IMG/VR virus record: IMGVR_UViG_3300042368_000342
Coordinates: 1-32,395 of that record
DNA from: a virus
Reading direction: 5' to 3' (one strand)
Length of the DNA: 32,395 nucleotides
Shown: positions 4,370 through 29,300 of the stretch, in pieces
Position numbering within the stretch: the stretch's first letter is position 1
Layout of the letters: the number at the start of each line of letters is the position of its first letter
Notes under the pieces: generated by a model
What the model was told of the DNA's origin: nothing
Seen by the model: only the letters and a program-made list of their open reading frames with translations
The model's database searches: none
Program-made: the position numbers and the translations under genes

Positions 4370-4370
4370 C

Positions 4371-4859: not shown

Positions 4860-6655
4860 TGGCACATTATCGCATTGCTCGCACTATGCCGAACGGATGG
4901 CAAGTGCGGCTGGACATGATAAGCTACGACGGGGCATTTGGTGACACGATTACAAATTTGCCAGAGGTCGTACTGCTTGAAATGGGCGAGCTAACCGCAG
5001 AGTTTGATTCTCTGCCGTATGGCCTTATGAATCCTGCAACGTTCTCATTTCGGCTTGTGTGGGATCAGCTACCGGAAACAATGCGGACGTACCTAGAAGA
5101 TGCTTTTACGGAAGATCCGTTACTGCTTTCAGGGTACAAGCGCAATACTTGGTATTTCTACACAGATCGCGGTACGAGCGGCGCAACGTGGACGCTTGAG
5201 TTTGCAGGATGTGAAGACAACGTAGAAGCACTAGAATTGCAGCCGATCGATAACCGCTTTTTCTCATACAACGTAGAGCTGGTAGACATAGCGTATTACT
5301 GGCTCAAAACGATGAATGGCAAACAGTTCTTCAATGTGATAGGTTTGGGAATAGCCAAGATATTAAGTCAAGATATTGCAGCAGGGCCGAATGCTTGGCA
5401 GATCAGACTCAACCCAAGCAATCTCAACAACCGAGAGCAAGTACACGAGTTTTGGAGTGTTAACGCACAAGGAACATTTTTGTCCATCGGCAATATGATG
5501 GACACGTTCTACAATTCGTCAAGCTACTTCGCCGAATCATTGACTCACGCCGCAAGTGGTACGTTTGATAGTACAAACGCTCTGCGTAACCTAATGAATC
5601 ACGCCGTAGACTGGTATGCTCCTGCAAGTGTGCAGAGCTTGCCGCGCAATGCGGACAGTACAGCGTTAACAAATGCACAAATGTATGCACTTGTAGAGAT
5701 CACGCCGGTAGGAGATGCCACGGCCATAGGCGGCGTAATGGTGCAACAAGACAAGTACGGCATTGCCAATGCTAATACGACGGCATACGATGTGCTGCGT
5801 ACGCTATGCGAGCAGTCAGGTGTACGTGCTGGCTATCGCTTTACAACAAGCGGAACAGGATCAGGCACGGCAATAAACGTAGTATTCGACGTGAAGATGG
5901 TAACAGAAGGCCGCGACGATCCAAGTAACGTAGATGCTACGCTTTCGTTGTCTAGTGCACTCACGTACTCAAGCATTACAAAGCGCGGCGATAACATCTT
6001 AAAAGCAGAAGTACGCTACGAGACCGAATCAGATCGCGACGCTACCGATATTGTCAAGGTGCAGCGCGGTGCTAGAGCATCTCGAAGCATGAACATTGAG
6101 CCGCTTTTGCACAACATGCCCGTGCATATTCAGGATAACAACCCAGATGACAGATGGCCAAAATTCAAAGCCCCGATAAAGCAGACTAACCAGCTTTACG
6201 TACGTGGTGATTACTACGGCGGATCGCCAAGCAACTTTATCAAGGTGCACGAAAAGACGGCTATACGATATAGCACGACACAATCTGTTGTTGTTGACCC
6301 AGACGGCCTAAAAAATCCAGTACCAGCAACGGATTTTAAGACGAACTCGCAAACTCAATCGACGTACTTCTTGCAGATCAATGACTGCCAAGTTAACGGA
6401 TGTATCACGGCTGCCCTGTGTAACCTGCTTCTAACGGTATTTAGCAATGAAAACAACGCTATTGTAGAGGTGGAGTGGCCTTTGAGCATAAGCAATAAGG
6501 TAATGACGGATTATATCGCGGGCAAATTCGAGCTAACCAACGAAGCGGCAGACAAATTCGATAACATCGCATGGGATAAGGCAATGCCAGTATCAATATC
6601 CGTTGACTTGATAGGCGCAAAAGCTACGCACCGCTATTATATGGTGAGCGCATAA
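4859..6655 (+). CDS. Large minor tail / baseplate hub-like protein
   Basis: A protein of 598 aa, second after the tape measure, in TAATG overlap with genes on both sides. The composition is mixed alpha/beta with many aromatic residues, and the N-terminal 120 or so residues are beta-rich. Second-after-tape-measure genes of this size in siphophages usually encode the tail-associated hub (Tal-like) or another tail-tip component that connects the tube to receptor-binding proteins. No peptidase or lysozyme motif is visible. The assignment is by gene order and size. Confidence 0.75.
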   Translation: MAHYRIARTMPNGWQVRLDMISYDGAFGDTITNLPEVVLLEMGELTAEFDSLPYGLMNPATFSFRLVWDQLPETMRTYLEDAFTEDPLLLSGYKRNTWYFYTDRGTSGATWTLEFAGCEDNVEALELQPIDNRFFSYNVELVDIAYYWLKTMNGKQFFNVIGLGIAKILSQDIAAGPNAWQIRLNPSNLNNREQVHEFWSVNAQGTFLSIGNMMDTFYNSSSYFAESLTHAASGTFDSTNALRNLMNHAVDWYAPASVQSLPRNADSTALTNAQMYALVEITPVGDATAIGGVMVQQDKYGIANANTTAYDVLRTLCEQSGVRAGYRFTTSGTGSGTAINVVFDVKMVTEGRDDPSNVDATLSLSSALTYSSITKRGDNILKAEVRYETESDRDATDIVKVQRGARASRSMNIEPLLHNMPVHIQDNNPDDRWPKFKAPIKQTNQLYVRGDYYGGSPSNFIKVHEKTAIRYSTTQSVVVDPDGLKNPVPATDFKTNSQTQSTYFLQINDCQVNGCITAALCNLLLTVFSNENNAIVEVEWPLSISNKVMTDYIAGKFELTNEAADKFDNIAWDKAMPVSISVDLIGAKATHRYYMVSA

Positions 6656-7452
6656 TGCCAATTAACGATCCAATCAAGAACCGCAAGGTAGCTCCAGCAT
6701 CGCTAGCGTTTGAACGTGACCAAATGCGCAACGGTGCGATCTTCCAAGTAGGTACAACACCGACATCGGTAACCTATCAGGAGATCGTAAACATCCGCTA
6801 CGGCGATATTACGCAGCTCTACATCACTAACCAGTATATCCAGACGGATAATGACAAGCTGATGAAGGCAATGCACGAATCTGAACACAGATCGAAGCAT
6901 TGGGTGTCGGATTACAAGCGTTCTTTCCAATGGGATATAAAGCAGAATCAAGCATACCGCGTAAATGACTGGCAGATACTAGCATTTAACAACGAAGTGC
7001 TGCGGGCTATGGGCTGCTCCAATGGCGGCGTTGTAGCTGATGGTACGGCATACTGGCAATATCGCTGCCCTGAAGATGCGGCAGGTATCTACTGGGTCTA
7101 TGCTTACCTCAATTTTCAGTTTGCCAACAATGCCAACGTTTCAAGCTCAAAGCTCGGATTGTTCCTTAACGGCTCGCTTTACCGCATTATTGATAACGTT
7201 GACAATAACATGATGGGCGCAAACAAAATCATTGATACGCGCATGGGCGGCGGTGCTCATATACCGATGAGGACAGGCGACGTACTAACTATACGAATCT
7301 ACGCCAAAGATAGCTTGGCTGGTTTGGATGTAGCTTTGTATCCTACATCTGTTTACGGCTATGTGACTGGACACCGTGAGAACTGCGACAATATCGAGAT
7401 ATACAACAACCCAGTAACTGGATTCCTTTACCAATTCAACAACAACGAATGA
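6655..7452 (+). CDS. Tail fibre / receptor-binding candidate with C1q/TNF-like jelly roll
   Basis: A protein of 265 aa. The N-terminal 120 or so residues probably attach it to the tail tip. The C-terminal half reads like a C1q/TNF-like jelly-roll head: GIYWVYAYLNFQF, then LGLFLNG, then HIPMRTGDVLTIRIYA, closing with SVYGYVTGHRE. This alternation of strands with a late GD pair is typical of such trimeric binding domains. It overlaps the hub-like gene upstream (TAATG) and the next gene (ATGA). A role in host-surface contact is inferred from fold and position. Confidence 0.65.
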   Translation: MPINDPIKNRKVAPASLAFERDQMRNGAIFQVGTTPTSVTYQEIVNIRYGDITQLYITNQYIQTDNDKLMKAMHESEHRSKHWVSDYKRSFQWDIKQNQAYRVNDWQILAFNNEVLRAMGCSNGGVVADGTAYWQYRCPEDAAGIYWVYAYLNFQFANNANVSSSKLGLFLNGSLYRIIDNVDNNMMGANKIIDTRMGGGAHIPMRTGDVLTIRIYAKDSLAGLDVALYPTSVYGYVTGHRENCDNIEIYNNPVTGFLYQFNNNE

Positions 7453-7988
7453 GCTGCTTACCAAATACACCTGTTGCGCCTAATCTTTTAAGCGCAACTA
7501 ACTCTAGCGATCTCGGATGGATCGATCTAACCAGCGTATCAACAAGCTCGCTGTCGCAATACTACCCCGTATCTAACACGGTGATAACGTTTGAAGGTAC
7601 GGCGAACACGACAAACCAGCACATGATCTTGCGGCAGCTTGAGATAGAAGAGACTGCAAGCAGCAGCGCCAATATCAAGAAAGCTCCGCTGCATGTTTAC
7701 CTTTATACAAACAGTTCGCCGGGCACGCCAACGCTCGGAGCGGTCTTTAATGGCAGCGTAACTGATCTTGTGGCGGTCGTACCAGTAGCGCAAGCGGACT
7801 ATGTGCGCGTAAGCGATACTAAATGGGTGGCGCGCGTTAATCCTGATCGCTACTATCGTACGGGTGTGGGTTCTACGGCGGGCTTCTTGTACGGCATCGT
7901 AATATCCAACAACGGGGCGAGCTTGCAGTATGCAGCATCGGCAGCGTTGCGCTTGAAGGTGATAACGGAAGCAGGGACAGCACTATGA
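7449..7988 (+). CDS. Putative structural protein of the tail tip
   Basis: A protein of 179 aa, Ser/Thr/Asn-rich and predicted mostly beta, with a Gly-Thr-Ala-rich C-terminus. Its ATG overlaps the stop of the preceding fibre-like gene (ATGA), and its own stop overlaps the next small gene in the same way. This suggests co-translation and possible assembly with the 6655-7452 product. I do not recognise a family, and no catalytic motif, signal peptide or membrane segment is visible. Confidence 0.7.
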   Translation: MSCLPNTPVAPNLLSATNSSDLGWIDLTSVSTSSLSQYYPVSNTVITFEGTANTTNQHMILRQLEIEETASSSANIKKAPLHVYLYTNSSPGTPTLGAVFNGSVTDLVAVVPVAQADYVRVSDTKWVARVNPDRYYRTGVGSTAGFLYGIVISNNGASLQYAASAALRLKVITEAGTAL

Positions 7989-8125
7989 TAGACGTTGAAG
8001 AACTGATCGAGCAGCTAAAAGTAATTGCATACGATGACATACCACCGGTACGCCGCGCGCAGCTATTGCATGTTATCGTCTATCTGGAGCAATGGGCGAA
8101 AGATCACAACGTAAGGGCTAATTGA
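7985..8125 (+). CDS. Small helical protein of unknown function (46 aa)
   Basis: ATG 7985 overlaps the preceding stop (ATGA), and its own TGA overlaps the next ATG (TGATG at 8123-8127). The 46-residue product begins MIDVEELIEQLKVIA and is acidic at the N-terminus and amphipathic helical overall, with no transmembrane segment. Couplings on both sides make it a likely real gene despite its size. It lies between the tail-tip genes and the phosphoesterase. No function can be given. Confidence 0.65.
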   Translation: MIDVEELIEQLKVIAYDDIPPVRRAQLLHVIVYLEQWAKDHNVRAN

Positions 8126-9096
8126 TGGGTAACAAGTCAGTCCGATTGAGCGATGAAGAGTACGAAGCGGTCGCAGCTATGCGAGCCGAGCGGCTAAAAA
8201 AGATGAAAACCAACAACACCAATATCCAGCTTGGTATTGCTAGGGCAGAATCTAGCTATGCCGAGCAGGCCGTAACCGGTGCTGTATTCGGTCAAGAGCC
8301 GGAGCCAGTTGCTCCGCTTGCAGGAGAGCTCCGCGAAGATGAGATAACGGACTTGTCTATGTGCAACAAGATCGGCGTAATCTCGGATGCTCATTGGCCC
8401 TTTCACGATCTGCGCAGGGAAGCAGACGGAACGTATAGCGGCGCATATTTAACCGCTATCGAATGGCTGCGCAACTGCGGAGTAGATACGCTGCTTTTAA
8501 ATGGCGATATGATGGACTGCTATAACCTTTCTTCGCATGAAAAGGTAGAAAATAACCGCTCGTGGAAGTGGGAGCTGGACGCCGCGCGTACGATGGTCAA
8601 ACATCTGCGCCAATTCTTTGGCGATAAGGTGCGTATTGTTTACCGCGAAGGCAATCACGAAGAGCGGCTCAAGCGTTACCTAGCACAGAAGGCTAAAGAG
8701 TTAGAAGGCACAATTATTCTAGAAGAGATGCTGGGTTTGCATGAGCAGGGTATAGAGTGGGTGCACGAACGGGCAAAGGTTAAAGCGGGCAAGCTCTGGA
8801 TAGATCACGGTCACGAATGGTTTGGCGGCGGTGGAGTTAATCCAGCACGCAACTACCGCATGAAGGCAGTTGACAATGTGATGGTTGGGCATGTTCACAA
8901 AACATCGACAGACCTATTTAGAAGGCCGCTGGACGGCACTTTCATAGCTGGGTGGTCTGTTGGGTGCTTATGCGATCTAAACCCGCGCTACGCGCCTAGA
9001 AACAACTGGAATCACGGCGTGGCTTTGGTAGAGTTAGAAGCGCAGGGTAACTTTACCGTTCACAACAAAGTAATCCTGCAAGGGGTGGTGCGATGA
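8125..9096 (+). CDS. Calcineurin-like metallophosphoesterase
   Basis: A protein of 323 aa with the full metallophosphoesterase motif set: D88-A-H90, G127-D128, G176-N-H-E179, H228-G-H230 and G255-H-V-H258. These residues form a two-metal site that hydrolyses phosphomono- or diesters. The first 75 or so residues are a charged, probably flexible extension. I chose ATG 8125 because it overlaps the preceding stop (TGATG) and has AAGGG upstream; a TTG at 8122 is less likely. It lies between tail-tip genes and the peptidase/endolysin pair. The substrate is unknown: it could act on nucleic acid or a cell-surface phosphodiester, or be a virion-associated enzyme. Confidence 0.9.
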   Translation: MGNKSVRLSDEEYEAVAAMRAERLKKMKTNNTNIQLGIARAESSYAEQAVTGAVFGQEPEPVAPLAGELREDEITDLSMCNKIGVISDAHWPFHDLRREADGTYSGAYLTAIEWLRNCGVDTLLLNGDMMDCYNLSSHEKVENNRSWKWELDAARTMVKHLRQFFGDKVRIVYREGNHEERLKRYLAQKAKELEGTIILEEMLGLHEQGIEWVHERAKVKAGKLWIDHGHEWFGGGGVNPARNYRMKAVDNVMVGHVHKTSTDLFRRPLDGTFIAGWSVGCLCDLNPRYAPRNNWNHGVALVELEAQGNFTVHNKVILQGVVR

Positions 9097-17035: not shown

Positions 17036-17842
17036 ATGGAAAACTCATGGATTAAGCTCCATCGTAAGATATTAGAGAACTGGGTATTTAAGCAAAGGCC
17101 AGAATATCTAAAGATTTGGGTCTATATTTTAATAGCTGCGAACTGGAAACCAAGCAAAGCGTTAGTCAATGGTCAGTTTGTGACAATCGATCGCGGTGAG
17201 ATGCTAACAAGCTACCGATCGCTAGCAGAAGGGGCAGGAACTACGGTGCAAATCGTAAAAACCTTTCTCAAGTACGCAGAAAATGACGGCATGATTAGCG
17301 TCAAAAGCAACACAGCAGCAACACGCCTTAAGATATTGAATTACGAAGACTTACAAGGACGTGAAAACAACGATCAACACACGCCTAACACACGGTTAAC
17401 ACACGATCAACACACGCCTAACACTATCATAAGAAGTAAAGAATATAAAGAAGGTAAGAAAGAAAGAATAGAAGAAGAAGATAAAGATAGTGTGAGTATG
17501 CGCTCGCGCGCATTCACGCGCCCAAGTTGTCAAGAAATCCTTGACTACTTCCAAGAGCTAGGCAGCACGCAGGAAGAAGCAAACAAATTCTACGACCATT
17601 ACACAGCCAACGGCTGGAAGGTGGGCAAGAACGCTATGAAGGATTGGAAAGCAACAGCGCGGAACTGGAACAGGAACAAAGGCAAGTTTGGCAAAGAAGC
17701 TGATCCGCAGATTGCGATCCGCACAAAGCCCGCAGGATTACCGAAGCAGGTGGTCGAATTGTACCAAAAAGAGCTACCATCAGAAATTGAAATAGAGCGC
17801 ATGAAAGCTTTGTACCTGTCCAAAGTATCAAACAACGAATAA
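17036..17842 (+). CDS. Replication initiator (lambda O-like organisation)
   Basis: A protein of 268 aa from ATG 17036. The N-terminal domain begins ENSWIKLHRKILENWVF and continues RGEMLTSYRSLAEGAGTTVQIVKTFLKYAEN, split here; it is the winged-helix pattern of phage replication proteins. A low-complexity linker (about residues 110-155, with DQHTPNT twice, then Lys/Glu-rich) is followed by a C-terminal helical domain, including NGWKVGKNAMKDWKATARNW, typical of phage replication or helicase-loading partners. The frame is open upstream to ATG 16886, but that segment contains a terminator and structured RNA. The linker DNA carries iterons, so the gene probably contains its own origin. Confidence 0.85.
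   Translation: MENSWIKLHRKILENWVFKQRPEYLKIWVYILIAANWKPSKALVNGQFVTIDRGEMLTSYRSLAEGAGTTVQIVKTFLKYAENDGMISVKSNTAATRLKILNYEDLQGRENNDQHTPNTRLTHDQHTPNTIIRSKEYKEGKKERIEEEDKDSVSMRSRAFTRPSCQEILDYFQELGSTQEEANKFYDHYTANGWKVGKNAMKDWKATARNWNRNKGKFGKEADPQIAIRTKPAGLPKQVVELYQKELPSEIEIERMKALYLSKVSNNE
17365..17500 (+). other. Putative origin of replication: 11-bp iterons plus A-rich tract
   Basis: AACACACG occurs at 17376, 17387, 17398 and 17409 with an exact 11-bp period, and a fifth partial copy (AACAC) starts at 17420. A longer 22-bp direct repeat (17370-17391 and 17403-17424) is part of the array. The array is followed by about 65 bases that are strongly A/G-rich on one strand (17425-17490) and could serve as the unwinding element. 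Iterons within the initiator gene next to an A-rich segment is the lambda ori arrangement. Confidence 0.6.
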
Positions 17843-17925: not shown

Positions 17926-18495
17926 ATGAGGCGGTATAGAAAGCTAAACGAGGTTCTCGCAATGTCCGACACCATCCTAAAATACTTTGACGTGCACCGG
18001 TCACGGTTCGTAACATGGGCACGTAAACAGCCCGACTTATTTCCAGAAGTAGGCAAGCGCGCGATGTATGACTACCTATTCATCGCAATCAACAGGCACA
18101 TGATACCAGCCAACACCACAGACACGCAACAAGCACTCAAAATCATCAAACAAAAACTAGCAATGAGACCAAACACGCAAAACCCAGCTATCCTAAACCT
18201 TATTGACCAATTCTGCAAGCTCTATAACTGCACATGGGAGCAGCTTGTAGCGCAATCCCGATTCCATTGGGTCGTAGAATGCCGCTACCTGCTCATGTAC
18301 TTCCTGTTCACGAAGTACAGACTATCTAACTCATTGATAGCGCGGCTATTTAACAAGCACCACTCGTCAGTTATCCACGCGCTGCGTAACATGCGCAACC
18401 AGATCGAGACGGATGCTAACTTCCGTGAATACGTGGAACGCATGGAAACGCTGCTAGATATTAACTTTACCGTGCAAGTGGAAGAGATAGAGTGA
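17926..18495 (+). CDS. DnaA domain IV-like DNA-binding protein
   Basis: A protein of 189 aa. The C-terminal half (about 110-165) reads CRYLLMYFLFTKYRLSNSLIARLF, then NKHHSSVIHALRNM, in blocks. This is the DnaA domain IV helix-turn-helix layout, with HHSSV in place of the DHSTV signature that reads DnaA boxes. There is no AAA+ domain. The gene has GGAGGG before ATG 17926 and lies between the replication initiator and the terminase genes. It may recruit or compete with host DnaA, or bind an origin or late promoter. TTATCCAC, a near DnaA box, occurs inside the gene at 18371-18378. Confidence 0.75.
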   Translation: MRRYRKLNEVLAMSDTILKYFDVHRSRFVTWARKQPDLFPEVGKRAMYDYLFIAINRHMIPANTTDTQQALKIIKQKLAMRPNTQNPAILNLIDQFCKLYNCTWEQLVAQSRFHWVVECRYLLMYFLFTKYRLSNSLIARLFNKHHSSVIHALRNMRNQIETDANFREYVERMETLLDINFTVQVEEIE

Positions 18496-18973: not shown

Positions 18974-20081
18974 AGCACGGCATCGGCTTTTCGTGGGTGG
19001 TATCGGTAGCGGCAAGACGCTAGCAGGATGCCTTGAGATACTACGGCAGCCGTCAGGAACATTTGGCACGGTCATAGCCCCTACCTATCCGATGCTGCGG
19101 GATGCTACGCTGCTCACGTTCTTTGAGAAGTTTGGGCAAGCGGTCGAGAGCCATAACAAGAGCGAAGGCGTCACCGTACTACGCAACGGTACTACCGTGT
19201 TCTGGAGATCAGCAGACAAGCCCGATTCACTCCGAGGCCCTAACCTCAACTGGTTCTACCTAGATGAAGCGGACTATATGGACGGCGCGACGTGGGACGT
19301 TATGCTTGGTCGTATTCGCCGCGATCCTACCGCTTGCTGGCTTACCACATCCCCTAATGGAGATACCAACTGGGTATATGAGCGGTTTTACCGTAAGTGG
19401 ACAGAAGGCAATCCAGAGTACTTCGTAGCGCAGGCAAAGACAAGGGACAATGTCCACCTACCTCCAGAATACGTCAGGACGCTAGAGGAGACGTATACCA
19501 GCGAGTTTGCGCGGCAGGAGCTGGAAGGGGAATTCATCGGGCCAATGGGGCGCATCATGCGGAAAGAGTGGCTGCAATACGCTCTGCTTCCAGAAGATGA
19601 CATCACGTACGTAATCGGAGTGGACTTGGCAGTAGGTATGAAGTCCAATGCAGACGATCGCGCTATTGTGGTGGTAGGCAAGCGTGGCACGACGTATTAC
19701 GTCGCTGATGTGGTATTCGGCAAGTGGAGCTTTAACGAGACCAAAGAAAAGGCAAAGCAGACGGCCTACAATTGGAATGCGGTCAGGGTGTGCGTTGAGA
19801 ATGTGGCGTATCAAGAGGCTATGGTACAACAGCTGCGAGCCGAGACCATGCTAAACATTCAGGGTGTGAATCCTCGTGGACGCAATAAGCTCACGCGCTT
19901 TCTGCCCATCGCGGGCAAGTATGAGCACGGGTACATCAAACATGTGAATAGCGTACCTTTGGAATTTACCGAGCAACTGCTTATGTTCGACGGCAAAGAT
20001 GGGAAGCCCGACGATATGGTTGACGCTCTCATCTACGCTGTAAACGGACACGAATCAAACACTTACGTTTACGAGATATAG
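18921..20081 (+). CDS. terL: Terminase large subunit
   Basis: A protein of 386 aa, the motor and nuclease for DNA packaging. Walker A is GGIGSGKT at 26-33; Walker B with catalytic Glu is LDEAD at 114-118 (D115, E116); the coupling motif TTSP is at 142-145. The RNase H-fold nuclease acids are D235 (GVDLAVG), E293 (VENVAY) and D365/D368 (DDMVDAL). The protein is compact but complete. It overlaps the small subunit gene by 53 bp and ends in TAGTG with the portal gene. Confidence 0.97.
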   Translation: MIQVTTPLPAQTAFWNSRARHRLFVGGIGSGKTLAGCLEILRQPSGTFGTVIAPTYPMLRDATLLTFFEKFGQAVESHNKSEGVTVLRNGTTVFWRSADKPDSLRGPNLNWFYLDEADYMDGATWDVMLGRIRRDPTACWLTTSPNGDTNWVYERFYRKWTEGNPEYFVAQAKTRDNVHLPPEYVRTLEETYTSEFARQELEGEFIGPMGRIMRKEWLQYALLPEDDITYVIGVDLAVGMKSNADDRAIVVVGKRGTTYYVADVVFGKWSFNETKEKAKQTAYNWNAVRVCVENVAYQEAMVQQLRAETMLNIQGVNPRGRNKLTRFLPIAGKYEHGYIKHVNSVPLEFTEQLLMFDGKDGKPDDMVDALIYAVNGHESNTYVYEI

Positions 20082-22174
20082 TGGCAATAGCCGATTACTT
20101 CCAAAAGCTCTTTGGTCGTAACAATCAAGCACTACCAAGCCCAAACGGCACGCAAGTCGGTGGGCGAATTGGCTATCCCTCAAAAGCTGGTTACCTTGCC
20201 AACGTCGAACACGGATTTAATCGCAACCCAGTCGTAGCTGCTTGCGTGGGTGTTTACGCATCTACGCTCAACGAGCCGCCTTTGGCTGCGATGTACGACG
20301 ATGGTACGATTAACAGGAACCATCCCGTCAGTCTGCTATTCCGTAAGCCGAACCCTCGTATGGGCCAAGCTGAATTCTGGCAGATCGTCTGGACATACCT
20401 AGCAATCAGCGGCAATGCCTACATCGTGAAGGTACGATCCGCAATGGGTAACATCGTTGAGTTATATCCTTACTCGGATGCTCACGTTGCGCCTCTGCTT
20501 AACGATCTGGGATGGGTATATGCTTACCGCTACCAGTCTGGTAACATTACGCAGGACTGGCCCGCGGATGACGTTATCCATATACAGAATCCAGCGTATC
20601 GCGATCCAGTCAATATGCACAAAGGCATAAGCCCTATCAGCGTGGCATGGGATAAGATCAATACATACAACGAACTGCAAGCTACGATCTATTCGCTTGT
20701 GGCTTCTAATGCTGTACCGTCTGGAGTTCTATCGGCTCCGGGCGATATTCCTATTGCTACCGTAGAGTCGCTTAAAGCGCAGCTACGCAAGCGTAAGGAT
20801 GCAAGCGGACGTGAGCGCACAGACCCGCTTGTGCTTGGCTCTGGTATGAATTATACGCAGATGGGATTGGATGCACAGAAGCTGCAAGCTATCGAGACAA
20901 TTCAAGAGCTTGAGACGTCGATATGTGGTGCATTCCGAATCCATCCGGCGGTAGTGCTTACGAGCGCAGGACTGGCCCGCAGTACCTACAACAACCTTGC
21001 AAGCGCATACCAAGAGTTTACGACGCTAACGCGCGTGCCATTCTGGAATGCGCTTGAAGAGCAGCTTGAATCTGGATTGCGTAAGGAATTCCCAGACGTC
21101 CAATTGCAATTCGATCTTGGCGAAGTACAGGCATTGCAGCCCGACGTAGACGCTGTTATCTACCCTGTTATTGCAGAGTTTAACGCGAACCTAATCACGC
21201 TTAATGAGAGCCGCGCTAAACTGGGATTTGAGCCAGTAGAGGACGGCGATAAATACTCGTATGAAGTCGTACCGCAGCCCGGCGGCTTTGGTGCTTTTAG
21301 CGCTCCAGAGCCAGAAGCAAAGCAGGCGGTAGAAACCAACGCCGACCCAATCGAAAGCGTAGAAGGCCGCAAGGTAAAGTGGCACGAGCCAGAAGCGGTG
21401 AAGTACTGGCAGAAGCAAGAGGACGTGGTACTGAAGGCGCTTGCACCTACGCAGAAAGACGTTGCCGACATGATGAAGCGCATAGAGCGTGCAGTCATGA
21501 AGCAGGTGAAGTCTAATCGTTTTGTTGGCGGTAACAAATCCATAAAAGCCCCGCAGGATGCTATCAACATTGCAGAGCTTGTTAAGCAGTTTATGGTAGC
21601 CAACCGTGAAACGCAGGACGTTCTACGCACCCGCATAATTGAGCTAACACTTGAGAGCGTGGGCGGTGATCTCACACAAGTGCAGAGCTTTACCGATCAA
21701 ATACGCGATGAGCAGATCCGCAAGATGACGCAGAACATGACGGAGTCTGTAACCACTACGAAGCGCGATGTGGCAAAGGTTCTTGAAGCCAATGCAGGGC
21801 AGCCGGTCGATGTAGTGCAGGCGGCATTGCAAAAGAAGTTCACAGAGCTTACGACTTCCCGCGCAAAGATGATTGCTACGACGACCTGCAAAGCGCAGGC
21901 AAGCGTAGTACAGCGTCAGACTGTTAAGCGCGTTAACCAGCGGGAAACTGATCCAAAGCGTAAGGTCGTGCAAGTTTGGCTATCCCAGCGCGATGCTGAT
22001 GTACGCGATACGCATGTGGAATTAGACGGCGAATGGATCGAAGAAGGTGAGACGTTTGACAAGTACGTAGACGGTGCGGGCGAAGGCCCCGGACTAGGTG
22101 AGCCAAGCGAGGCGATTAACTGCCGTTGCACACTACGACCTGTTCGCAAATCAAGAATAACGAGCGACGTATAA
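20081..22174 (+). CDS. Portal protein fused to a MuF-like head morphogenesis domain
   Basis: A protein of 697 aa from GTG 20081, which overlaps the terL stop (TAGTG). Residues 1-400 or so are an HK97-type portal: RKPNPRMGQAEFW, YLAISGNAYIVKVR, DVIHIQNP, GLARSTYNN and EFTTLTRVPFWNALEEQLE elements. The portal dodecamer forms the DNA channel. A charged linker of about 200 residues follows. The last 100 or so residues carry the Mu gpF-like pattern: ATTTCKAQASVVQRQ, D.R..H..LDGE, GEPSEAINCRCTLRP. The cysteines in INCRC are typical. Portal and MuF are normally separate adjacent genes. No frameshift or stop is seen at the join. Confidence 0.93.
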   Translation: MAIADYFQKLFGRNNQALPSPNGTQVGGRIGYPSKAGYLANVEHGFNRNPVVAACVGVYASTLNEPPLAAMYDDGTINRNHPVSLLFRKPNPRMGQAEFWQIVWTYLAISGNAYIVKVRSAMGNIVELYPYSDAHVAPLLNDLGWVYAYRYQSGNITQDWPADDVIHIQNPAYRDPVNMHKGISPISVAWDKINTYNELQATIYSLVASNAVPSGVLSAPGDIPIATVESLKAQLRKRKDASGRERTDPLVLGSGMNYTQMGLDAQKLQAIETIQELETSICGAFRIHPAVVLTSAGLARSTYNNLASAYQEFTTLTRVPFWNALEEQLESGLRKEFPDVQLQFDLGEVQALQPDVDAVIYPVIAEFNANLITLNESRAKLGFEPVEDGDKYSYEVVPQPGGFGAFSAPEPEAKQAVETNADPIESVEGRKVKWHEPEAVKYWQKQEDVVLKALAPTQKDVADMMKRIERAVMKQVKSNRFVGGNKSIKAPQDAINIAELVKQFMVANRETQDVLRTRIIELTLESVGGDLTQVQSFTDQIRDEQIRKMTQNMTESVTTTKRDVAKVLEANAGQPVDVVQAALQKKFTELTTSRAKMIATTTCKAQASVVQRQTVKRVNQRETDPKRKVVQVWLSQRDADVRDTHVELDGEWIEEGETFDKYVDGAGEGPGLGEPSEAINCRCTLRPVRKSRITSDV

Positions 22175-22935
22175 TGAAGTACAAGAACATACCAGTAGAA
22201 TTTAAAGCCGATGAAGAGGGCAGCGTTGAAGCGTTTGTAAGCGTTTTCGGCAATGTCGATTCATACGGCGATCGCGTGATCTACGGCGCATTCAAGGAAA
22301 GCATAGAAGCAAAGCTACCAAAGATGGTATGGCAGCACGATATGCAGCGCCCAATTGGTAAGACGGTTCTAGCAGAAGAGATACCAGCGGGCGATGCGCG
22401 TCTGCCAGAGCGTCTACGTGAGAACGGAGCGCTATATGTAAAGGGCCTATTTAACCTTAACACTACCGACGGCAAAGACGCATACGAGCACATCAAATTC
22501 GGCAGCGTCGATGAATACAGCTTCGGATATGAAGAAGTGGAGACAACACCGCTCGCAGATGGTACAAAAGAACTCAACAAACTGAACATAATCGAATGGT
22601 CTCCGGTTACGGTAGGGGCTAATCCCATGACCATGACAAGTAACGTTAAAGCTATGACACTCGAAGAAAAGCTGGATGTAGCGGCTACGCTTATCAAGCA
22701 ATCAGAAGAGCACGCACTCGCATACGCGGATATGCGTAGTAAAGCGGGGCGCGTTCTCAACTCTCGAATCCGAGGCATGATCCTTTCACTTGCCGATCAA
22801 CTGAAAGACGTGTCGAAAAATCTGTATCAGCTACATGCCGAGACAGACCCAATACCAAAGGCAGACGATAAGGAGATTAAGCGCAAGCAGCTCCTATCGC
22901 TTATGCAAACAATTAACACAATGGAGATAATCTAA
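22174..22935 (+). CDS. HK97-family prohead protease
   Basis: A protein of 253 aa. Catalytic candidates are H55 in WQHD and S116 in DEYSFGY; EWSPVTVGANP near 141-151 is also typical of peptidase family U35/S78. It cleaves the scaffold part of the capsid protein during head maturation. The protease core spans about 1-165, and the last 90 residues are helical and may act as scaffold. I chose ATG 22174 because it overlaps the portal stop (TAATG); the frame is open 16 codons upstream. It ends in TAATG with the major capsid gene. Confidence 0.94.
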   Translation: MKYKNIPVEFKADEEGSVEAFVSVFGNVDSYGDRVIYGAFKESIEAKLPKMVWQHDMQRPIGKTVLAEEIPAGDARLPERLRENGALYVKGLFNLNTTDGKDAYEHIKFGSVDEYSFGYEEVETTPLADGTKELNKLNIIEWSPVTVGANPMTMTSNVKAMTLEEKLDVAATLIKQSEEHALAYADMRSKAGRVLNSRIRGMILSLADQLKDVSKNLYQLHAETDPIPKADDKEIKRKQLLSLMQTINTMEII

Positions 22936-24395
22936 TGACGTGGGAAGAAATCCTTGCCGCTTTGGATGCCGTTCTCGCCGGGACATTTGAAACACCGGAA
23001 GCAATGGCAGCTGAAGTAGCAACAATCCGCGAACAGATCGCGGCGCTTCTTGCAGAAGCATCTGAAGAAACAGCCGAAGTTGAAGAGGTATCGGCAGCAG
23101 TAGAGGGTGCAGCAAAGGCACAAGCCAAGCTCGCTCGTATCATGACAATCATCCAACAAAAGAAGGCGCTTAACGATATGAAGACAAAGAACGCTTCAGA
23201 TCTTAACGCACTCAAGACAGCGGCGCCAGTACCTTCTGGATTCGTTGCAGAAGGCGCAAAGATCACAGGCCAGCACTACCGTGGCAAGGCATTTAAGCAG
23301 TTCGGCAGCGAAGCAGGAGCAGCGGCATACAAGGCAGGACGCCAGATTGCAGCTTGCCTCGGCGATGCTAGCTCGGCTCAATGGTGCAAAGAGAACGGCG
23401 TGCCAATGCAGAAGACAATGGCAACTACTAACAACTCGCTCGGTGGATTGACCGTTGTTGACGAACTGGATCAAGCTATCCTGTACTACCGCGAAGAGCG
23501 CGGCGTAGCTCGTGGTATTATGGACGTAGTATCCATGAACAGCGAAACACGCACAGTAAACCGCAACGTAGGCGGCACGGCTGTATACGCACTCGGCGAA
23601 GGCCAGACATATACAGAGTCAGATGTGCAGTTCAGCGGCGTACAGCTTACAGCCAAGAAGTTCGGTGCTCTTACGCAGAACACAATCGAACTCGGCGAAG
23701 ATTCATACGCAGCAATCGCAGAAGAGATCGCTAAGGATCACGGCTACGCACACGCTGTACAAGAAGACAAGGTTGCTTTCTTGGGCGATGGTACATCAAC
23801 GTACAACAACCTTGTAGGTTTGACCGAATCATTCAAGAAGCTCGTTACTGATATCGGCGGTACATGGGCAACGGATGCTAACAAGGCATACGCAGCGGGC
23901 GTACAAGTAGCATCAGGCGCAACGCTTGCTACTATCACACTCGGCGATATCATCAAGACTCAGGCAAAGGTTGCTACGTTCCCGGGAATGAATAACCGCT
24001 TCTATACGCCTTCGCAGATTTGGTACGGCACGATTGTACCATTGATCCAAGCCGTAGGTGGTAACACAGCAACGCAGATCGTAGACGGCGTAACACGTCA
24101 GTTCTTTAACGGTTCGGAAGTTGTCTTCACAGATGAACTTTACACGCCGCTTCTTACAGCAGAGAACAGCCAGTTCGTACTGTTCTATGGTGATGCTGCT
24201 CAAGCTGGTTTGTTTGGCGATCGTCGCGGTCTGTCTATCACAAGCTCACAAGAAGTTGGCTTTCTGACAGACACGCAATACAACAAGTCCACGGCTCGCT
24301 ACGGCGTAAACTGGTGGAACATCGGTAACGCTTCAACAACAGCATCGGCACGTCAACGCGGCGCGCTTGCAGCTCTTGTAACAAAGAACTCATAA
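22935..24395 (+). CDS. Major capsid protein, HK97 fold, with N-terminal delta domain
   Basis: A protein of 486 aa. Residues 1-85 or so are helical coiled coil rich in Ala/Glu, acting as the built-in scaffold (delta) domain that the upstream protease would remove. The HK97-fold core follows: GGLTVVDELDQAIL, ALGEGQTYTESDVQF, KKFGALTQNTIEL, FLGDGTSTYNNLVGL, and NRFYTPSQIWYG near the C-terminal third. The stop (24393-24395) is ten bases before the next gene, with AAGGTGA serving as its Shine-Dalgarno. It is the main shell subunit. Confidence 0.95.
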   Translation: MTWEEILAALDAVLAGTFETPEAMAAEVATIREQIAALLAEASEETAEVEEVSAAVEGAAKAQAKLARIMTIIQQKKALNDMKTKNASDLNALKTAAPVPSGFVAEGAKITGQHYRGKAFKQFGSEAGAAAYKAGRQIAACLGDASSAQWCKENGVPMQKTMATTNNSLGGLTVVDELDQAILYYREERGVARGIMDVVSMNSETRTVNRNVGGTAVYALGEGQTYTESDVQFSGVQLTAKKFGALTQNTIELGEDSYAAIAEEIAKDHGYAHAVQEDKVAFLGDGTSTYNNLVGLTESFKKLVTDIGGTWATDANKAYAAGVQVASGATLATITLGDIIKTQAKVATFPGMNNRFYTPSQIWYGTIVPLIQAVGGNTATQIVDGVTRQFFNGSEVVFTDELYTPLLTAENSQFVLFYGDAAQAGLFGDRRGLSITSSQEVGFLTDTQYNKSTARYGVNWWNIGNASTTASARQRGALAALVTKNS

Positions 24396-24404
24396 GGTGA
24401 CCCA

Positions 24405-24848
24405 ATGAATAACTTGCAAAACGTAAAGGTTGTAAACGTAACGCCGCCTGCCGCTATCAAGGATAACGCTTCGTTCGCTACAACTACAATCGACACCATC
24501 GGCTTCAACAAGGTAGCTGTATACTTTGCACTCGGCGCAACTGACATTGCTATGACTGCTCTCAAGATTCAAGAGTCAGACGATGCAGGCATGAGCGGAG
24601 CCGCTGATATTACAGGCGCTGTATACGGCGTAACAGGTGCTCCGGCACTTCCGAGCGCAGATGATGATAACAAGATCTTCGGATTCTTCATTGACCTCAA
24701 AGGCCGCAAGCGCTACCTCGATGTAGTCGCTACGGCTGGTGATGGATCTACGGGCACATTCGGTGCTTGCACGGCTCATCTTTACAACAGCTTGACAACG
24801 GAAGACAACGCTACGCAGCGCGGTCTTGCAGCTAATCTTATCGTGTAA
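24405..24848 (+). CDS. Capsid-associated / head decoration-like protein
   Basis: A protein of 147 aa, Ala/Gly/Thr/Asp-rich and beta-prone, with KALIFIGATDIA-like strands (GATDIAMTALKIQESDD), a central IFGFFIDLKGRKRYLDVV and a C-terminal TTEDNATQRGL. It follows the major capsid gene, so a head decoration or stabilising role is likely. Proteins of this pattern beside phage capsid genes are usually unnamed. A strong hairpin lies ten bases after its stop, suggesting that capsid and this protein are transcribed at a high level together. Confidence 0.75.
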   Translation: MNNLQNVKVVNVTPPAAIKDNASFATTTIDTIGFNKVAVYFALGATDIAMTALKIQESDDAGMSGAADITGAVYGVTGAPALPSADDDNKIFGFFIDLKGRKRYLDVVATAGDGSTGTFGACTAHLYNSLTTEDNATQRGLAANLIV

Positions 24849-24857
24849 CGTGACATG

Positions 24858-24883
24858 ACTACGGGGGCTTCGGCCCTCGTGGT
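24858..24883 (+). terminator. Strong UUCG-capped hairpin after the capsid genes
   Basis: An 11-bp stem runs from ACTACGGGGGC (24858-24868) to GCCCTCGTGGT (24873-24883), with two G-U pairs and a UUCG tetraloop. No U-tract follows, so it is not a classical intrinsic terminator. It could stabilise the 3' end of the capsid mRNA, mark an RNA processing site or cause partial termination. It sits in the 53-bp gap before 24902. Confidence 0.55.
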
Positions 24884-24901
24884 GATCTCACTTGAAAGCA
24901 C

Positions 24902-25246
24902 ATGATAACACTATCCAACGCAGGCGCAAGAGTTGATTTGCAGATTCGCAAGGGTGGGGCTTTTGCTCGCACACTTACGTACAAAGTCAACGGCGCTGTA
25001 CAGAATATCACGGGCTATACGTTCGCGGCTCAAGTGCGTACAGTATCGGGCACGCTTGCCGCTACGTTTACGTGCACGATCGTAAGCGCAGTAGCAGGCA
25101 CGTTTAGCATTGTGCTTACGAGCGCTGAGACGGCAGCACTTGTAACCACGACCGAATACAAGTGGGATTTAGAAGTTACTATTAGCGGCGTAGTTACCGA
25201 GCTTTTGCGCGGCGATGTTACGGTAGTGGATGAGGTGACAACGTGA
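24902..25246 (+). CDS. Small beta-sandwich structural protein
   Basis: A protein of 114 aa. Repeated beta segments read LQIRKGGAFARTLTYKV, then ITGYTFAAQVRT and FSIVLTSAETAALVTTTEYKWDLEV, split here. The closing LLRGDVTVVDEVT follows the pattern of small phage proteins with an Ig-like or BppU-N-like fold that attach fibres or decorate the virion. The role is inferred. Its stop overlaps the GTG of the next gene (GTGA). Confidence 0.7.
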   Translation: MITLSNAGARVDLQIRKGGAFARTLTYKVNGAVQNITGYTFAAQVRTVSGTLAATFTCTIVSAVAGTFSIVLTSAETAALVTTTEYKWDLEVTISGVVTELLRGDVTVVDEVTT

Positions 25247-25686
25247 GCACCATCAACGTAAGGCAAGACACGGTAAGCGTAGATATTAAGCAGTACGATG
25301 TAGTGCTAGATATTGTAAGCGGCGGAATCGTGCCTGCGGCGATTGATACCACGCTGGTAGCATCTACGTCGCTATCCGCTTTGCGATGCATTACAACGGA
25401 TTCTAGCGGCCTTGCAAAGTACGCTACGCCTGACTCGCTTGCGAATGCCGTGGTAATTGGGATCAGCACGACGGCGGCAAGCACGGGGCAGAATATCACG
25501 ATCAAAACAAGCGGGCAGATTACGGATGCTTCTTGGAACTGGACAAAGGGCGCAATCTATTTAGGCGCTAACGGTGTGCTTACACAGACGGCCCCGAGCG
25601 GAGGTAGCATCATCGTTCACGTAGCAAAAGCAATAACAGCAACAACACTAATCATCGACATAGACACAATCATTCAAACGGTGTAA
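25243..25686 (+). CDS. Structural protein, fibre/decoration-like
   Basis: A protein of 147 aa from GTG 25243 (GTGA overlap). The centre and C-terminal half read AVVIGISTTAASTGQNITIKTSG, then KGAIYLGANGVLTQT, then GGSIIVHVAKAITATTLIIDI. This resembles the domain of the next gene (LDGTITGLTGLTPGAAYYLSG), so the two may be related trimeric beta proteins. They are part of a cassette of five small structural genes. No enzyme motif is present. Confidence 0.7.
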   Translation: MSTINVRQDTVSVDIKQYDVVLDIVSGGIVPAAIDTTLVASTSLSALRCITTDSSGLAKYATPDSLANAVVIGISTTAASTGQNITIKTSGQITDASWNWTKGAIYLGANGVLTQTAPSGGSIIVHVAKAITATTLIIDIDTIIQTV

Positions 25687-25687
25687 C

Positions 25688-26197
25688 ATGGCAGAAAAGT
25701 ATATCAAGAATAACAGCGGCCAGCTCGCAGAAGTCGAAGCTACCGTATCATCGTCCGGCGCAACGGAAGCGGGCAAAATCATAGCTCTCGACGGATCGGG
25801 TAAGCTGGACAATTCGGTATTGCCAACGGGAATAGGCGCTACTGTTAAGGTTGCAGCAACTACCGAGAACCTATCGGCTGGCAACCTCGTAAACCTGTTT
25901 AACGATGGCGGCACAATCAAGGCACGCAAGGCAGACGCAAGCAACGGACGCCGTGCTATCGGCTTTGTGATTACAAACTCCACATCGCCTAACAACGCAA
26001 CGGTGTACCTCGACGGTACGATCACAGGTCTTACAGGTTTAACGCCTGGCGCTGCTTATTATTTGAGCGGAGCGACGGCGGGCGCTGCATCTGCAACGGC
26101 TCCGACAACAGCAACCTATATCTCACAGGAAATCGGCATCGCTCTGTCAGCAACCGAGATCAACTTTGAAGAACAACAACCTATTACGCTGGCCTAA
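25688..26197 (+). CDS. Structural protein, fibre-like repeats
   Basis: A protein of 169 aa. The N-terminus contains AGKIIALDGSGKLDNSVLP, a pattern that often begins phage fibre modules. The middle has DASNGRRAIGFVI and ATVYLDGTITGLTGLTPGAAYYL. The sequence is Ala/Thr/Gly-rich, with no hydrophobic membrane segment. It starts one base after the preceding stop and forms a cassette with its neighbours. A virion fibre or decoration role is likely, but its precise location on the particle is unclear. Confidence 0.7.
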   Translation: MAEKYIKNNSGQLAEVEATVSSSGATEAGKIIALDGSGKLDNSVLPTGIGATVKVAATTENLSAGNLVNLFNDGGTIKARKADASNGRRAIGFVITNSTSPNNATVYLDGTITGLTGLTPGAAYYLSGATAGAASATAPTTATYISQEIGIALSATEINFEEQQPITLA

Positions 26198-26200
26198 TCT

Positions 26201-26437
26201 ATGGCAGTTAAGAAACCATTAGTCCTAGCGTCTGGTCAGATTCAGGAACTGCAGAGCGGTGACGAAATCAACATAGACGCTAGCGATATTACCACGGGCA
26301 CAGTAGCTACGGCACGGCTTGCTACTGGTACGGCTGATAGCACGACGTTTTTGCGTGGTGACCAGACGTGGGCTGTGCCTTCTGGTGGTGGTAGTTCTGT
26401 AACGCCGTTGCATCCTTTTCTTTTAATGGGGGCATAA
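26201..26437 (+). CDS. Short fibre-like protein (78 aa)
   Basis: A 78-residue product with ASDITTGTVATARLATGT followed by TTFLRGDQTWAVP. The pattern G-T-A-D-S-T-T-F-L-R-G-D-x-T-W is seen repeatedly in phage tail fibres, often just before a receptor-binding domain. Here the protein stops soon after that motif (GGGSSVTPLHPFLLMGA), so it may be an N-terminal fibre piece separated from its former C-terminus. Its TAA overlaps the next ATG (TAATG). Confidence 0.65.
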   Translation: MAVKKPLVLASGQIQELQSGDEINIDASDITTGTVATARLATGTADSTTFLRGDQTWAVPSGGGSSVTPLHPFLLMGA

Positions 26438-26778
26438 TGCCAAGCGGACAAGTATATAAAGTGCTTGGGCAATCATGTCCAGCTAACACGAACGCAACCG
26501 ACCTATACACCGTACCATCTTCAACCGAGACGGTCGTGTCGTGCATTACCATTGCCAACATTACAGCGACGGCGTACACGTACCGCGTAGCTATTCGACC
26601 TGCGGGTGCTTCCATTGCTAACCAGCATTACCTTGCCTTTGATGTAACGGTCAATGCCAACGATTCGACAACGCTTGTGCTAGGCATAACGCTTGCAGCT
26701 ACGGATGTGATCACGGTGCGGTCATCCAATGCTACGTCTATTTCGTTCTCTGCTTTCGGGTGTGAGCTTGCAACGTGA
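26437..26778 (+). CDS. Beta-rich structural protein (113 aa)
   Basis: A 113-residue protein with strands YTVPSSTETVVSCITIAN, YTYRVAIRPAGA, NDSTTLVLGITLAATDVITV. The pattern resembles small beta domains common in phage fibre or tail-tip clusters. No catalytic motif is present. It is joined by TAATG upstream and GTGA downstream to the receptor-binding candidate, so the two are probably made in fixed ratio. Confidence 0.7.
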   Translation: MPSGQVYKVLGQSCPANTNATDLYTVPSSTETVVSCITIANITATAYTYRVAIRPAGASIANQHYLAFDVTVNANDSTTLVLGITLAATDVITVRSSNATSISFSAFGCELAT

Positions 26779-27644
26779 GCATAAGATCAGCACGATATAA
26801 CCTGCTTTCATTGCGTAATCCGAAGGGGCTAACATTTATTCCCGAAGAGCGGGATGCGTGGGCTTTCCTAGATGCGGCTGGTATCACATCATCAAGACAG
26901 CAGCGCGCTGTTATTGACCTTGTGCGTGGGTTAAAGCATGCCCAGCTCTGGTCGAAGATGAAAGCGATCTATCCATTCGTTGGCGGCACTGCAACTACGC
27001 ACAAGTTTAACTTGAAAGATCCACGTGATGCGGATGCGGCGTTTCGTCTTAGCTTCAGTGGTGGATGGACACATGCAAGCACGGGAGCTGACCCTAATGG
27101 TACTAATGCTTGGGCCAATAGTTTTATAAATCCAAGTAATAATTTAAGTTTTAATTCTACCCATCTATCTATTTACCATCGCGAAAACAGACAGGCAGCA
27201 GATTTATATGCGGTATCAATGGGCGCATCTGTAAGCACAACAAATGATGGTCGATTGTATATTTTGCCAAGAGAAGGCCAACCAGCAGGGAATTTATCTT
27301 ATGTTACTATAAATAAAGGTAATACAACTGGCGATGATTTCATCTCATTTTCCGATACTAATAATGCCGCTTATTACATTGCTTCGAGAACATCAATAAA
27401 TTTATTGAAAGCATATAGGAACTCTATTAATACAGCAACTGGTACTAATAGTGGGACTAAACTTGTAAATGCTGATATAGCAATTGGTGCCTACAATGTA
27501 AAAACAACAGTTAATCAACCGCTATATTTTACGACTTGCGAAATTGCCTTTGCCACCATCGGCGACGGCCTGACCGACACCGACGCAACTAACCTCTACA
27601 ACATCGTTCAACGCTACCAAACTTCACTCGGAAGACAGGTATGA
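26775..27644 (+). CDS. Receptor-binding / tail fibre candidate with mosaic centre
   Basis: A protein of 289 aa from GTG 26775 (GTGA overlap). The N-terminal 105 or so residues contain LWSKMKAIYPFVGGTATTHKF and NLKDPRDADAAFRLSF. The C-terminal 40 or so contain IGDGLTDTDATNLYNIVQRYQT and LGRQV. Both read like conserved fibre ends. The middle (27120-27530) is AT-rich DNA: 14 G+C in 60 bases at 27121-27180 against 34 in 60 at 27541-27600, by hand count. Conserved ends around a compositionally foreign middle suggest exchange of a host-recognition domain. Confidence 0.7.
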   Translation: MSIRSARYNLLSLRNPKGLTFIPEERDAWAFLDAAGITSSRQQRAVIDLVRGLKHAQLWSKMKAIYPFVGGTATTHKFNLKDPRDADAAFRLSFSGGWTHASTGADPNGTNAWANSFINPSNNLSFNSTHLSIYHRENRQAADLYAVSMGASVSTTNDGRLYILPREGQPAGNLSYVTINKGNTTGDDFISFSDTNNAAYYIASRTSINLLKAYRNSINTATGTNSGTKLVNADIAIGAYNVKTTVNQPLYFTTCEIAFATIGDGLTDTDATNLYNIVQRYQTSLGRQV

Positions 27645-27901
27645 TACTTTCACAGATTCCAGTAACGGAGCTTGTCAACTACTGCGCCAAGCTAACACCA
27701 GAGCAAGCGGACTCGTTGCGTGGTCAGGTGTTCTTACAGGATTCGTATTTCAATCCTATCCAAGACATCGAAGACAACTGGATCATCTCAGCGCAGGAAG
27801 TGGCGTATTGTGCTAACCCAGAGTTCCTATGGATTAAAGATCTCCCAATGATACCATTCGTACCAAAGCCCGCACCGCCGTTGTTCGGAGGTGAAGCATG
27901 A
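27641..27901 (+). CDS. Small unknown protein (86 aa)
   Basis: The product begins MILSQIPVTELVNYCAKL and ends KPAPPLFGGEA. Residues 1-50 or so are acidic, and Pro/Trp/Phe residues are frequent in the second half. It is joined to both neighbours by ATGA overlaps (27641 and 27898). It follows the receptor-binding candidate and might serve as its partner or assembly factor, but nothing in the sequence shows this. Confidence 0.65.
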   Translation: MILSQIPVTELVNYCAKLTPEQADSLRGQVFLQDSYFNPIQDIEDNWIISAQEVAYCANPEFLWIKDLPMIPFVPKPAPPLFGGEA

Positions 27902-28182
27902 CCGTAGAGACTATGTTCGGTATTATCATGAGCACCATGCTGGCCATCATCGGCTTTTGGGTTAAGACGCTGGTTAATGACTTCAAGCAGACACGCGATA
28001 ACGTGATCGCCATGCACGAAGTGATGAGCAACACGACCAACGAAATCATCGCGCTCAAGAAATCAGATGAGCTAATCACACAGCGCATTGTCGAGATCAT
28101 CGAGCGGCTGGTAAGATTAGAAGAACGAACAGGCAACACAGAACCAAAACCACGTAAGGCTTACAAGCGTGCTGTCAGATGA
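27898..28182 (+). CDS. Membrane-anchored coiled-coil protein, possibly lysis-related
   Basis: A protein of 94 aa. An N-terminal hydrophobic segment (MFGIIMSTMLAIIGFWV, about 6-22) is followed by a charged helix with heptad character (LITQRIVEIIERLVRLEER) and a basic C-terminus. One membrane span plus coiled coil resembles small phage holin-like or haemolysin-XhlA-like proteins. It overlaps the next gene, which has a hydrophobic holin-like C-terminus, by 14 bases. The endolysin is far away at 9334. Confidence 0.65.
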   Translation: MTVETMFGIIMSTMLAIIGFWVKTLVNDFKQTRDNVIAMHEVMSNTTNEIIALKKSDELITQRIVEIIERLVRLEERTGNTEPKPRKAYKRAVR

Positions 28183-28528
28183 CCCAATCATATCGAAGGT
28201 TGTACTGCGTTACAAGTTCTGGCCTAAACGTCAGGACTACGTACCACCTATTGAGCGCGTACCGCTTGCAGATGAATTGCAGCCGCATGTTCCACGTGAA
28301 ACAAAGAAGCTGAATCTAATGCATTACGTCAGAATGATACCACACTTTTACACAATTATAAAAGGCGTTGCAATGAGCAACTGGAAGACAACGGTCACAG
28401 GCATTGTTGGTGCGTTGGCTGTACTAGTCAACTCCCTGACAGGTGTTGCGCTACCACAAGACGCGATTATCGCAGTAACACTTTTCGCACTCGGATTCTT
28501 TGCAAAGGATGGAAAGAGCAATGATTGA
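28169..28528 (+). CDS. Holin-like protein with an N-terminal extension
   Basis: A protein of 119 aa from GTG 28169. The first 65 or so residues are soluble (ISKVVLRYKFW ... HYVRMIPHF). An in-frame ATG at 28373 would give a 51-residue product with two hydrophobic segments (VTGIVGALAVLVNSLTGV and AIIAVTLFALGFFA) and a charged tail AKDGKSND, much like small phage holins. The longer and shorter products may both be made. An exact parS consensus is embedded at codons 40-45 (28288-28303). Confidence 0.65.
   Translation: MLSDDPIISKVVLRYKFWPKRQDYVPPIERVPLADELQPHVPRETKKLNLMHYVRMIPHFYTIIKGVAMSNWKTTVTGIVGALAVLVNSLTGVALPQDAIIAVTLFALGFFAKDGKSND
28288..28303 (+). promoter_or_regulatory. Exact match to chromosomal parS (ParB-binding) consensus
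   Basis: The 16 bases TGTTCCACGTGAAACA match the consensus TGTTNCACGTGAAACA that ParB/Spo0J proteins bind in most bacterial phyla. The site is a near palindrome around CACGTG. It lies within the long form of the holin-like gene, upstream of its internal ATG 28373. I see no ParA- or ParB-like gene in the window, so a host ParB would be the reader. Confidence 0.7.
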
Positions 28529-28721
28529 TTTTAGCAAGATCAAAAACAAGGCAATCGTGACAATCAATCACGGTGCAAAAGACATTGACGTAGAAGTAGT
28601 AAACGATACTCCGAGCGCGTGCGTAGTCAAGCTGCCAGACGGCTCGATTATGACAGTAGGCAAGATGCACGTAAAGGCAATCAAGCCAGAGACTCCCGTA
28701 CCTTCTGCTATCAAGGAATAA
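28521..28721 (+). CDS. Small unknown protein (66 aa)
   Basis: ATG 28521 overlaps the preceding stop, with GGAAAGAG before it. The 66-residue product is beta-prone (KAIVTINHGAKDIDVEVV, then ACVVKLPDGSIMTVGKMHV). The acidic Pro-rich tail ends PSAIKE. It sits between the holin-like gene and the connector genes, three bases before the connector start. Small head-joining accessory proteins occur here in other phages, but no family is recognised. Confidence 0.7.
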   Translation: MIDFSKIKNKAIVTINHGAKDIDVEVVNDTPSACVVKLPDGSIMTVGKMHVKAIKPETPVPSAIKE

Positions 28722-28724
28722 GCA

Positions 28725-29300
28725 ATGCCTCTCGTATCGCGCGCAGTAATTAAGCAGGACTGGCTAAACATCGCAGCAATCGACACAAGCCGCGACGGTC
28801 TTATAGATCGTCTAATTGGCTATGTCGATAATGAGATCAAAGACATCTGCAATCAGCCAATCATTCAGGAAAGCGTAACAGCTTACTACGAAGGCACGCG
28901 CGATACGTTGCTTTTAACAGGTTATACCGTGCCGGTGACGTTGACTACGCTTAAATATAGAGATAGCTACGGAGATACATTTGCTTCCGTCACCGGCACT
29001 ACTAATCTTGTGGACATACGCGGCGTTAAGTACCTCTACCTTGAAGATGGTTTCATCAACAAGCAGTACGAAGCGGTGATGAGCGTAGGATATACAACCA
29101 TCCCTAGCGTGATAGAGATATGCGCTGCGGAGATGGTAACCGAGCTGTATATGGAGACACCATTCGCACCGCAGGCAAACCGATTTGGCGTAACAGCTAT
29201 TACCGAAAGCGAAGCTGGTATGAGCATCTCCAAGACATTGCAGGCAATGCGTACGCGCGTTAAGCCACGGCTCGCACCATATACTCGCGTAACAATATGA
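28725..29300 (+). CDS. Head-tail connector (gp6-like adaptor)
   Basis: A protein of 191 aa. The N-terminal helices (LIDRLIGYVDNEIKDICNQPI) and beta parts resemble the HK97 gp6/SPP1 gp15 adaptor family, which forms the ring beneath the portal. The middle includes an ESVTAYYEGTRDTLLL strand motif and later the helical segment VIEICAAEMVTELYME. The order connector, gp10-like closure and tail terminator downstream strengthens the call. Its stop overlaps the next ATG (ATGA). Confidence 0.82.
   Translation: MPLVSRAVIKQDWLNIAAIDTSRDGLIDRLIGYVDNEIKDICNQPIIQESVTAYYEGTRDTLLLTGYTVPVTLTTLKYRDSYGDTFASVTGTTNLVDIRGVKYLYLEDGFINKQYEAVMSVGYTTIPSVIEICAAEMVTELYMETPFAPQANRFGVTAITESEAGMSISKTLQAMRTRVKPRLAPYTRVTI

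Follow-up and report, generated by a model that had tools for sequence, protein, structure and literature searches.

The window, by which we mean the whole 32,395-bp stretch of viral DNA analysed here, carries on its forward strand a replication initiator gene with a short array of direct repeats in the part that encodes an interdomain linker. The features of the locus are listed below.

17036 to 17842, + strand: replication initiator gene (268 aa from the ATG at 17036; match to phrog_2514 and homology to SPP1 gp38)
17036 to 17356, + strand: winged-helix DNA-binding domain, aa 1-107 (family profile; AlphaFold2 blocks of pLDDT 91-98 over aa 11-100)
17246 to 17284, + strand: predicted recognition helix, aa 71-83, VQIVKTFLKYAEN (a helix in the model; the unit/protein correlation peaks at its GTTVQIV)
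17375 to 17503, + strand: region encoding a disordered linker, aa 114-156 (pLDDT below 50), which contains the array and the tract
17376 to 17424, + strand: iteron array of four units at an exact 11-bp pitch plus a partial fifth at 17420, with the core AACACACG
17425 to 17490, + strand: AT-rich, purine-rich tract (24% GC, 83% purine), a probable unwinding element whose opening is predicted
17513 to 17695, + strand: C-terminal module (FTRPSCQEILDYF...NGWKVGKNAMKDWKATARNW), a probable helicase or loader contact by its presumed function
17926 to 18495, + strand: gene directly after the initiator gene, encoding 189 aa with a DnaA domain-IV-like helix-turn-helix (Bac_DnaA_C, E 1.2e-9)

The initiator protein matches phrog_2514, a DnaD-like helicase loader family (E 1.3e-30), and its N-terminal domain is homologous to gp38 of phage SPP1 (32% identity over 130 aa, E 2e-18). 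A family profile from whose construction the window and its cousins were left out matches the same domain with an E of 5.7e-33. An AlphaFold2 model built on an alignment of 46 relatives predicts a confident winged helix until about aa 107 and a helical C-terminal module, the latter being present also in proteins with an unrelated N-terminal domain. When the model was used in a fold search, the best matches were winged-helix proteins including RepA plasmid initiators, all of them weak (E 0.02 or worse); the RepA structures of pSK41/pTZ2162 ranked second (4pt7) and fourth (4pql) among other winged-helix proteins, with E values of only 0.02-0.04. The initiator frame is also open upstream of the ATG at 17036, back to 16886, and an in-frame stretch is retained at this place in close relatives; the protein may thus start at about 16917 and comprise roughly 308 aa. 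Among the genes scanned, no DnaC/DnaI-like loader adjoins the initiator gene; the neighbour carries a DnaA-like DNA-binding domain instead and has no AAA+ match. Its product is possibly a second origin-binding or loader protein, a role in replication that is suggested by its position only.

The initial annotation had described four exact 11-bp units and a partial fifth in linker-coding DNA, followed directly by an A-rich tract, and both elements are found as described. The core AACACACG occurs four times in the window (starts at 17376, 17387, 17398, and 17409) and nowhere else in it, and the partial fifth unit reads AACAC (17420-17424). The segment 17376-17424 has the highest lag-11 score of the window (20.5, with the runner-up at 8), a score that 100 dinucleotide shuffles of the complete window never reached (maximum 12.5). 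The tract is the richest part of the window in both A and purine: the most A-rich 60-mers (63% A) start around 17426-17431 and the most purine-rich (up to 88% purine) at 17429-17433. In 35 relatives, the tract that follows the array has a median of 76% AT and 74% purine. The window has no second, non-coding array, and its 10 one-mismatch DnaA boxes (6 expected) do not cluster near the one it has. Where the gene encodes the wing of the domain, two degenerate words resembling the iterons, AACACAG (17309) and AACACGC (17320), follow each other at a distance of 11 bp and are partly explained by a protein motif; two relatives (L013 and L014) carry GGCACA/GGCACG words at about the matching place.

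That the DNA pattern, and not the low-complexity linker that it encodes, may be the selected feature had also been proposed, and several observations argue for this. First, codon resampling that keeps the protein sequence leaves the lag-11 signal of the array unexplained (z = 5.7, 0 of 2000 resamplings). Since a shift of 11 bp changes the reading frame, the repeat in the peptide has a period of no less than 33 bp (DQHTPNTRLTH / DQHTPNTII). Second, in one relative (L016) all four cores carry an identical A to G change, AACACACG to AACACGCG, which falls at codon positions 1, 3, 2, and 1; this change hits a DNA word and not a peptide. Moreover, the three changes inside the array of the close relatives L007 and L008 each lie in a 3-bp spacer. 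With a period that is no multiple of 3 and a change in L016 that is concerted across codon positions, the array is a feature of the DNA.

The pitch of the array was then compared across the family in viral and bacterial contigs and named phages, which together provided 329 genes with the winged-helix initiator domain and, after clustering at 75% DNA identity, 52 non-redundant linkers. Loci were picked by protein similarity and not for repeats, scans for relatives used single proteins and a 4-member alignment, and lags of 7 to 30 were compared against a protein-preserving resampling null. Over the 52 linkers, the mean z is 5.77 at lag 11, with 36 linkers reaching z>=4, and 4.97 at its harmonic, lag 22; at all other lags in this range the mean z is at most 1.4. 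None of 270 control windows from other ORFs of the sampled loci reaches a z of 4 at lag 11. In the remaining 16 linkers the lag-11 signal falls below z 4, and in a few no array is visible; by inspection, some 23-bp cases resemble alternating 11 and 12 bp. Eight loci were found later by a different search, four of which have z>=4 at lag 11 (one of these, L421, shares its genome with L334, which was already in the sample) and one more has a 22-bp period. The units themselves vary among relatives (AACACACG, GGGCACA, GGGCGC, TGTCAATCAAG, ACATCAAAACA, and GACAACAGAGT). A comparison with relatives had been proposed as a test of the initial annotation, with retention of the protein repeat in place of the DNA period as the outcome that would speak against it; the opposite was found, in that linker proteins and units differ while the 11-bp DNA period is kept.

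Named phages whose initiator genes combine this DNA-binding domain family with an 11-bp linker array include PVL, StB27, phiAT3, Lrm1, PSU-VKH-LP019, EH-TP1, poppyseed, and Cellulophaga phi18:3. The unit is particular to each phage, the C-terminal module is one of several, and the records consulted carry no origin annotation. TP901-1 rep and 80alpha gp20 have neither an 11-bp array nor a match to the domain profile. Two bacterial loci with the winged-helix domain show other arrangements in place of 11 bp, namely a 12-bp array (L426) and, together with an inverted repeat, a 22-bp array (L434). DUF6291 initiators differ in their N-terminal domain, and several of these proteins carry a similar C-terminal module; 5 of 13 show a period of 10 bp and 3 of 13 one of 11 bp, and in L048, L052, L055, L075, L410, and L417 the 10- or 11-bp arrays lie in the linker that follows and exceed the protein-preserving null. 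Several arrays in this group are simple short-unit repeats, and the extension to DUF6291 initiators is therefore only suggestive.

Comparison of close relatives indicates that domain and array travel together. Between the window and L013, identity is 93-97% over most of the 100 bp before the ATG at 17036, drops to about 60% within the binding domain and the array, and returns to mostly 80-100% after the tract. The 17 closest loci have the C-terminal module in common, yet carry five different units. From these alignments, the DNA-binding domain and the array look to have been exchanged as one specificity cassette. In the 36 relatives that have an 11-bp array, units are more similar the more identical the binding domains are (Mantel p 0.001), and a sliding scan of the unit/protein correlation in the same relatives reaches its maximum where the recognition helix begins, at GTTVQIV. 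With the rest of the domain held constant, the recognition helix remains correlated with the unit (partial Mantel r 0.24, p 0.0015; p 0.05 for the reverse), with the reservation that Mantel tests control only partly for the relatedness of the sequences.

The closest known counterpart is found in SPP1, where gp38 binds direct repeats of oriL, which lies inside gene 38, and of oriR (PMC6316719), and where the fragment 35801-36151 has been used as oriL (PMC5615212). A contig of 44,010 bp that encodes a gp38-type protein (G493) was taken as SPP1. Its 11-bp array (35937-35980) falls inside the oriL fragment and, like that of the window, occupies the linker-coding part of a gene with a homologous DNA-binding domain and is followed by an AT-rich tract (AACAATGA in SPP1). 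The two differ in the unit (RAAAMGACAC in SPP1, AACACACG in the window), in the C-terminal module, and in the gene next door, which encodes the gp39 loader in SPP1 and the DnaA domain-IV-like protein in the window, where no loader match was obtained in the genes scanned. They differ further in that SPP1 has a second, non-coding array. A matrix of the oriL unit, run on SPP1 positions 1-9000, 20000-30000, and 33578-38345, detected one other strong site (4877-4910), again followed by the AACAATGA tract. This copy of units and tract (4877-4945) lies in the gap between ORF 7, which ends at 4730, and ORF 8, which starts at 5067, so that the units, with their pitch, and the tract are found side by side in DNA without an annotated protein. 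With a published distance of 12-13 kb between oriL and oriR, oriR would be expected near 4.9 kb on the SPP1 circle, and we infer that the 4.9 kb site is oriR.

Taken together, an array beyond what chance and the encoded protein would produce, a conserved pitch, the exchange of domain and array as a cassette, covariation with the recognition helix, homology to gp38, the architecture of SPP1 oriL and of the presumed oriR, and the disordered linker suggest that 17376-17490 is very probably an origin of theta replication, of the oriL type known from SPP1, and is activated by the product of the gene in which it lies. In such an origin, each 8-bp core would be bound by one winged-helix domain, so that a domain would sit at every 11 bp and the bound initiator copies would all lie on the same side of the helix. 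Stacked in this way, they would then open the AT- and purine-rich tract that follows immediately downstream, where the C-terminal module would recruit the replicative helicase or its loader; binding, opening, helicase loading, and origin activity are what we infer for the phage of the window. Lambda O interacts with the single-stranded AT-rich DNA of its origin (PMC7466680), as plasmid Rep proteins do with single-stranded AT-rich origin DNA (PMC4081077), and by analogy the strand bias of the tract would fit contacts of this kind. Because the array encodes only a disordered protein linker, its DNA would be free to serve as an origin.

A winged-helix protein that binds repeats within its own gene could also be autoregulatory, and the array might then be an operator at which the initiator or a repressor controls transcription of the replication genes, with replication starting elsewhere. 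The position of the array deep inside the gene, the retention of the adjoining AT-rich tract across the family, and the fact that the SPP1 counterpart is a functional origin fragment make this very unlikely. The initial annotation had called the locus a lambda-like origin, a description that holds for the layout, in that ori-lambda likewise places repeats and an AT-rich tract inside the initiator gene, but not for the kinship, which is with SPP1 gp38/oriL and not with lambda O. A true lambda-family origin, in which the protein would be an O homologue and the array a variant of ori-lambda, is a still slimmer prospect: weak matches in tblastn to O-like proteins, that of HK75 among them (E 2e-4), and a match to phrog_345 point toward it, whereas lambda O is missing from the matches of the family profile, profile comparison with it gives a probability of 0.1%, and the 18-bp lambda iterons are set at steps of 20-24 bp, about two helical turns, and not at 11 bp. 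Finally, that the repeats are a mere by-product of a low-complexity linker, a notion to which the predicted disorder of the linker and the codon-phased 9- and 12-bp repeats in some linkers of the family lend some color, is contradicted at the DNA level by a period that is no codon multiple and exceeds protein-preserving resampling, by concerted core changes that hit all codon positions, and by units and tract in non-coding SPP1 DNA, and has next to no probability.

It is established that lambda, SPP1, and RepA_N plasmids have their origins within initiator genes. RepA_N initiators (pSK41 and the chimeric pPR9) have a winged-helix N-terminus, Rep boxes within the gene, a dispensable linker, and a separate C-terminal domain, and for pPR9 a swap of domain and origin has been published (PMC5703833). 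The window gene has a comparable layout, with a predicted winged-helix N-terminal domain, in-gene repeats, a linker, and a separate C-terminal part; the structural match of its product to RepA is weak, and the RepA_N family is absent among its Pfam matches. For the family-wide pitch of one helical turn and the covariation with the recognition helix, no description was found in the open-access literature, a scope outside which the original SPP1 papers lie.

Returning to the oriL-type reading, we tentatively propose, as a possibility with somewhat less than even prospects, that the origin of this widespread family is an in-gene cassette with one 11-bp unit per helical turn, the letters of which are set by the recognition helix encoded upstream, and that near-identical phages swap the cassette and thereby change their replication specificity, perhaps escaping satellites, co-infecting relatives, or origin decoys. 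If true, origins could be placed from sequence alone in many unstudied phages and prophages by locating a winged-helix initiator and then an 11-bp period, and the family would provide natural pairs of recognition helix and binding site from which to learn how such initiators read DNA. It would also illustrate clearly that the same bases can serve as an origin and encode a protein linker. Cassette exchange, in turn, makes it testable whether replication specificity is under diversifying selection.

A turning point of GC skew near 17.4 kb had been anticipated for an origin at this place. The best single change point does lie near the array, at 17248, but there the slope falls from 0.047 to 0.015 per base and does not reverse, in a one-break test that is weak because the near-identical 137-bp ends indicate that the record may be circular. 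These ends (1-137 and 32259-32395) form a direct repeat with 98.5% identity in a record classed as linear, which may therefore represent the complete genome of a phage, either circular or terminally redundant. The proteins encoded at 339-851 and 31707-32318 are paralogues (24% identity, E 1e-14), and on a circular map their genes would adjoin just before the long tail-like gene at 851-4369.
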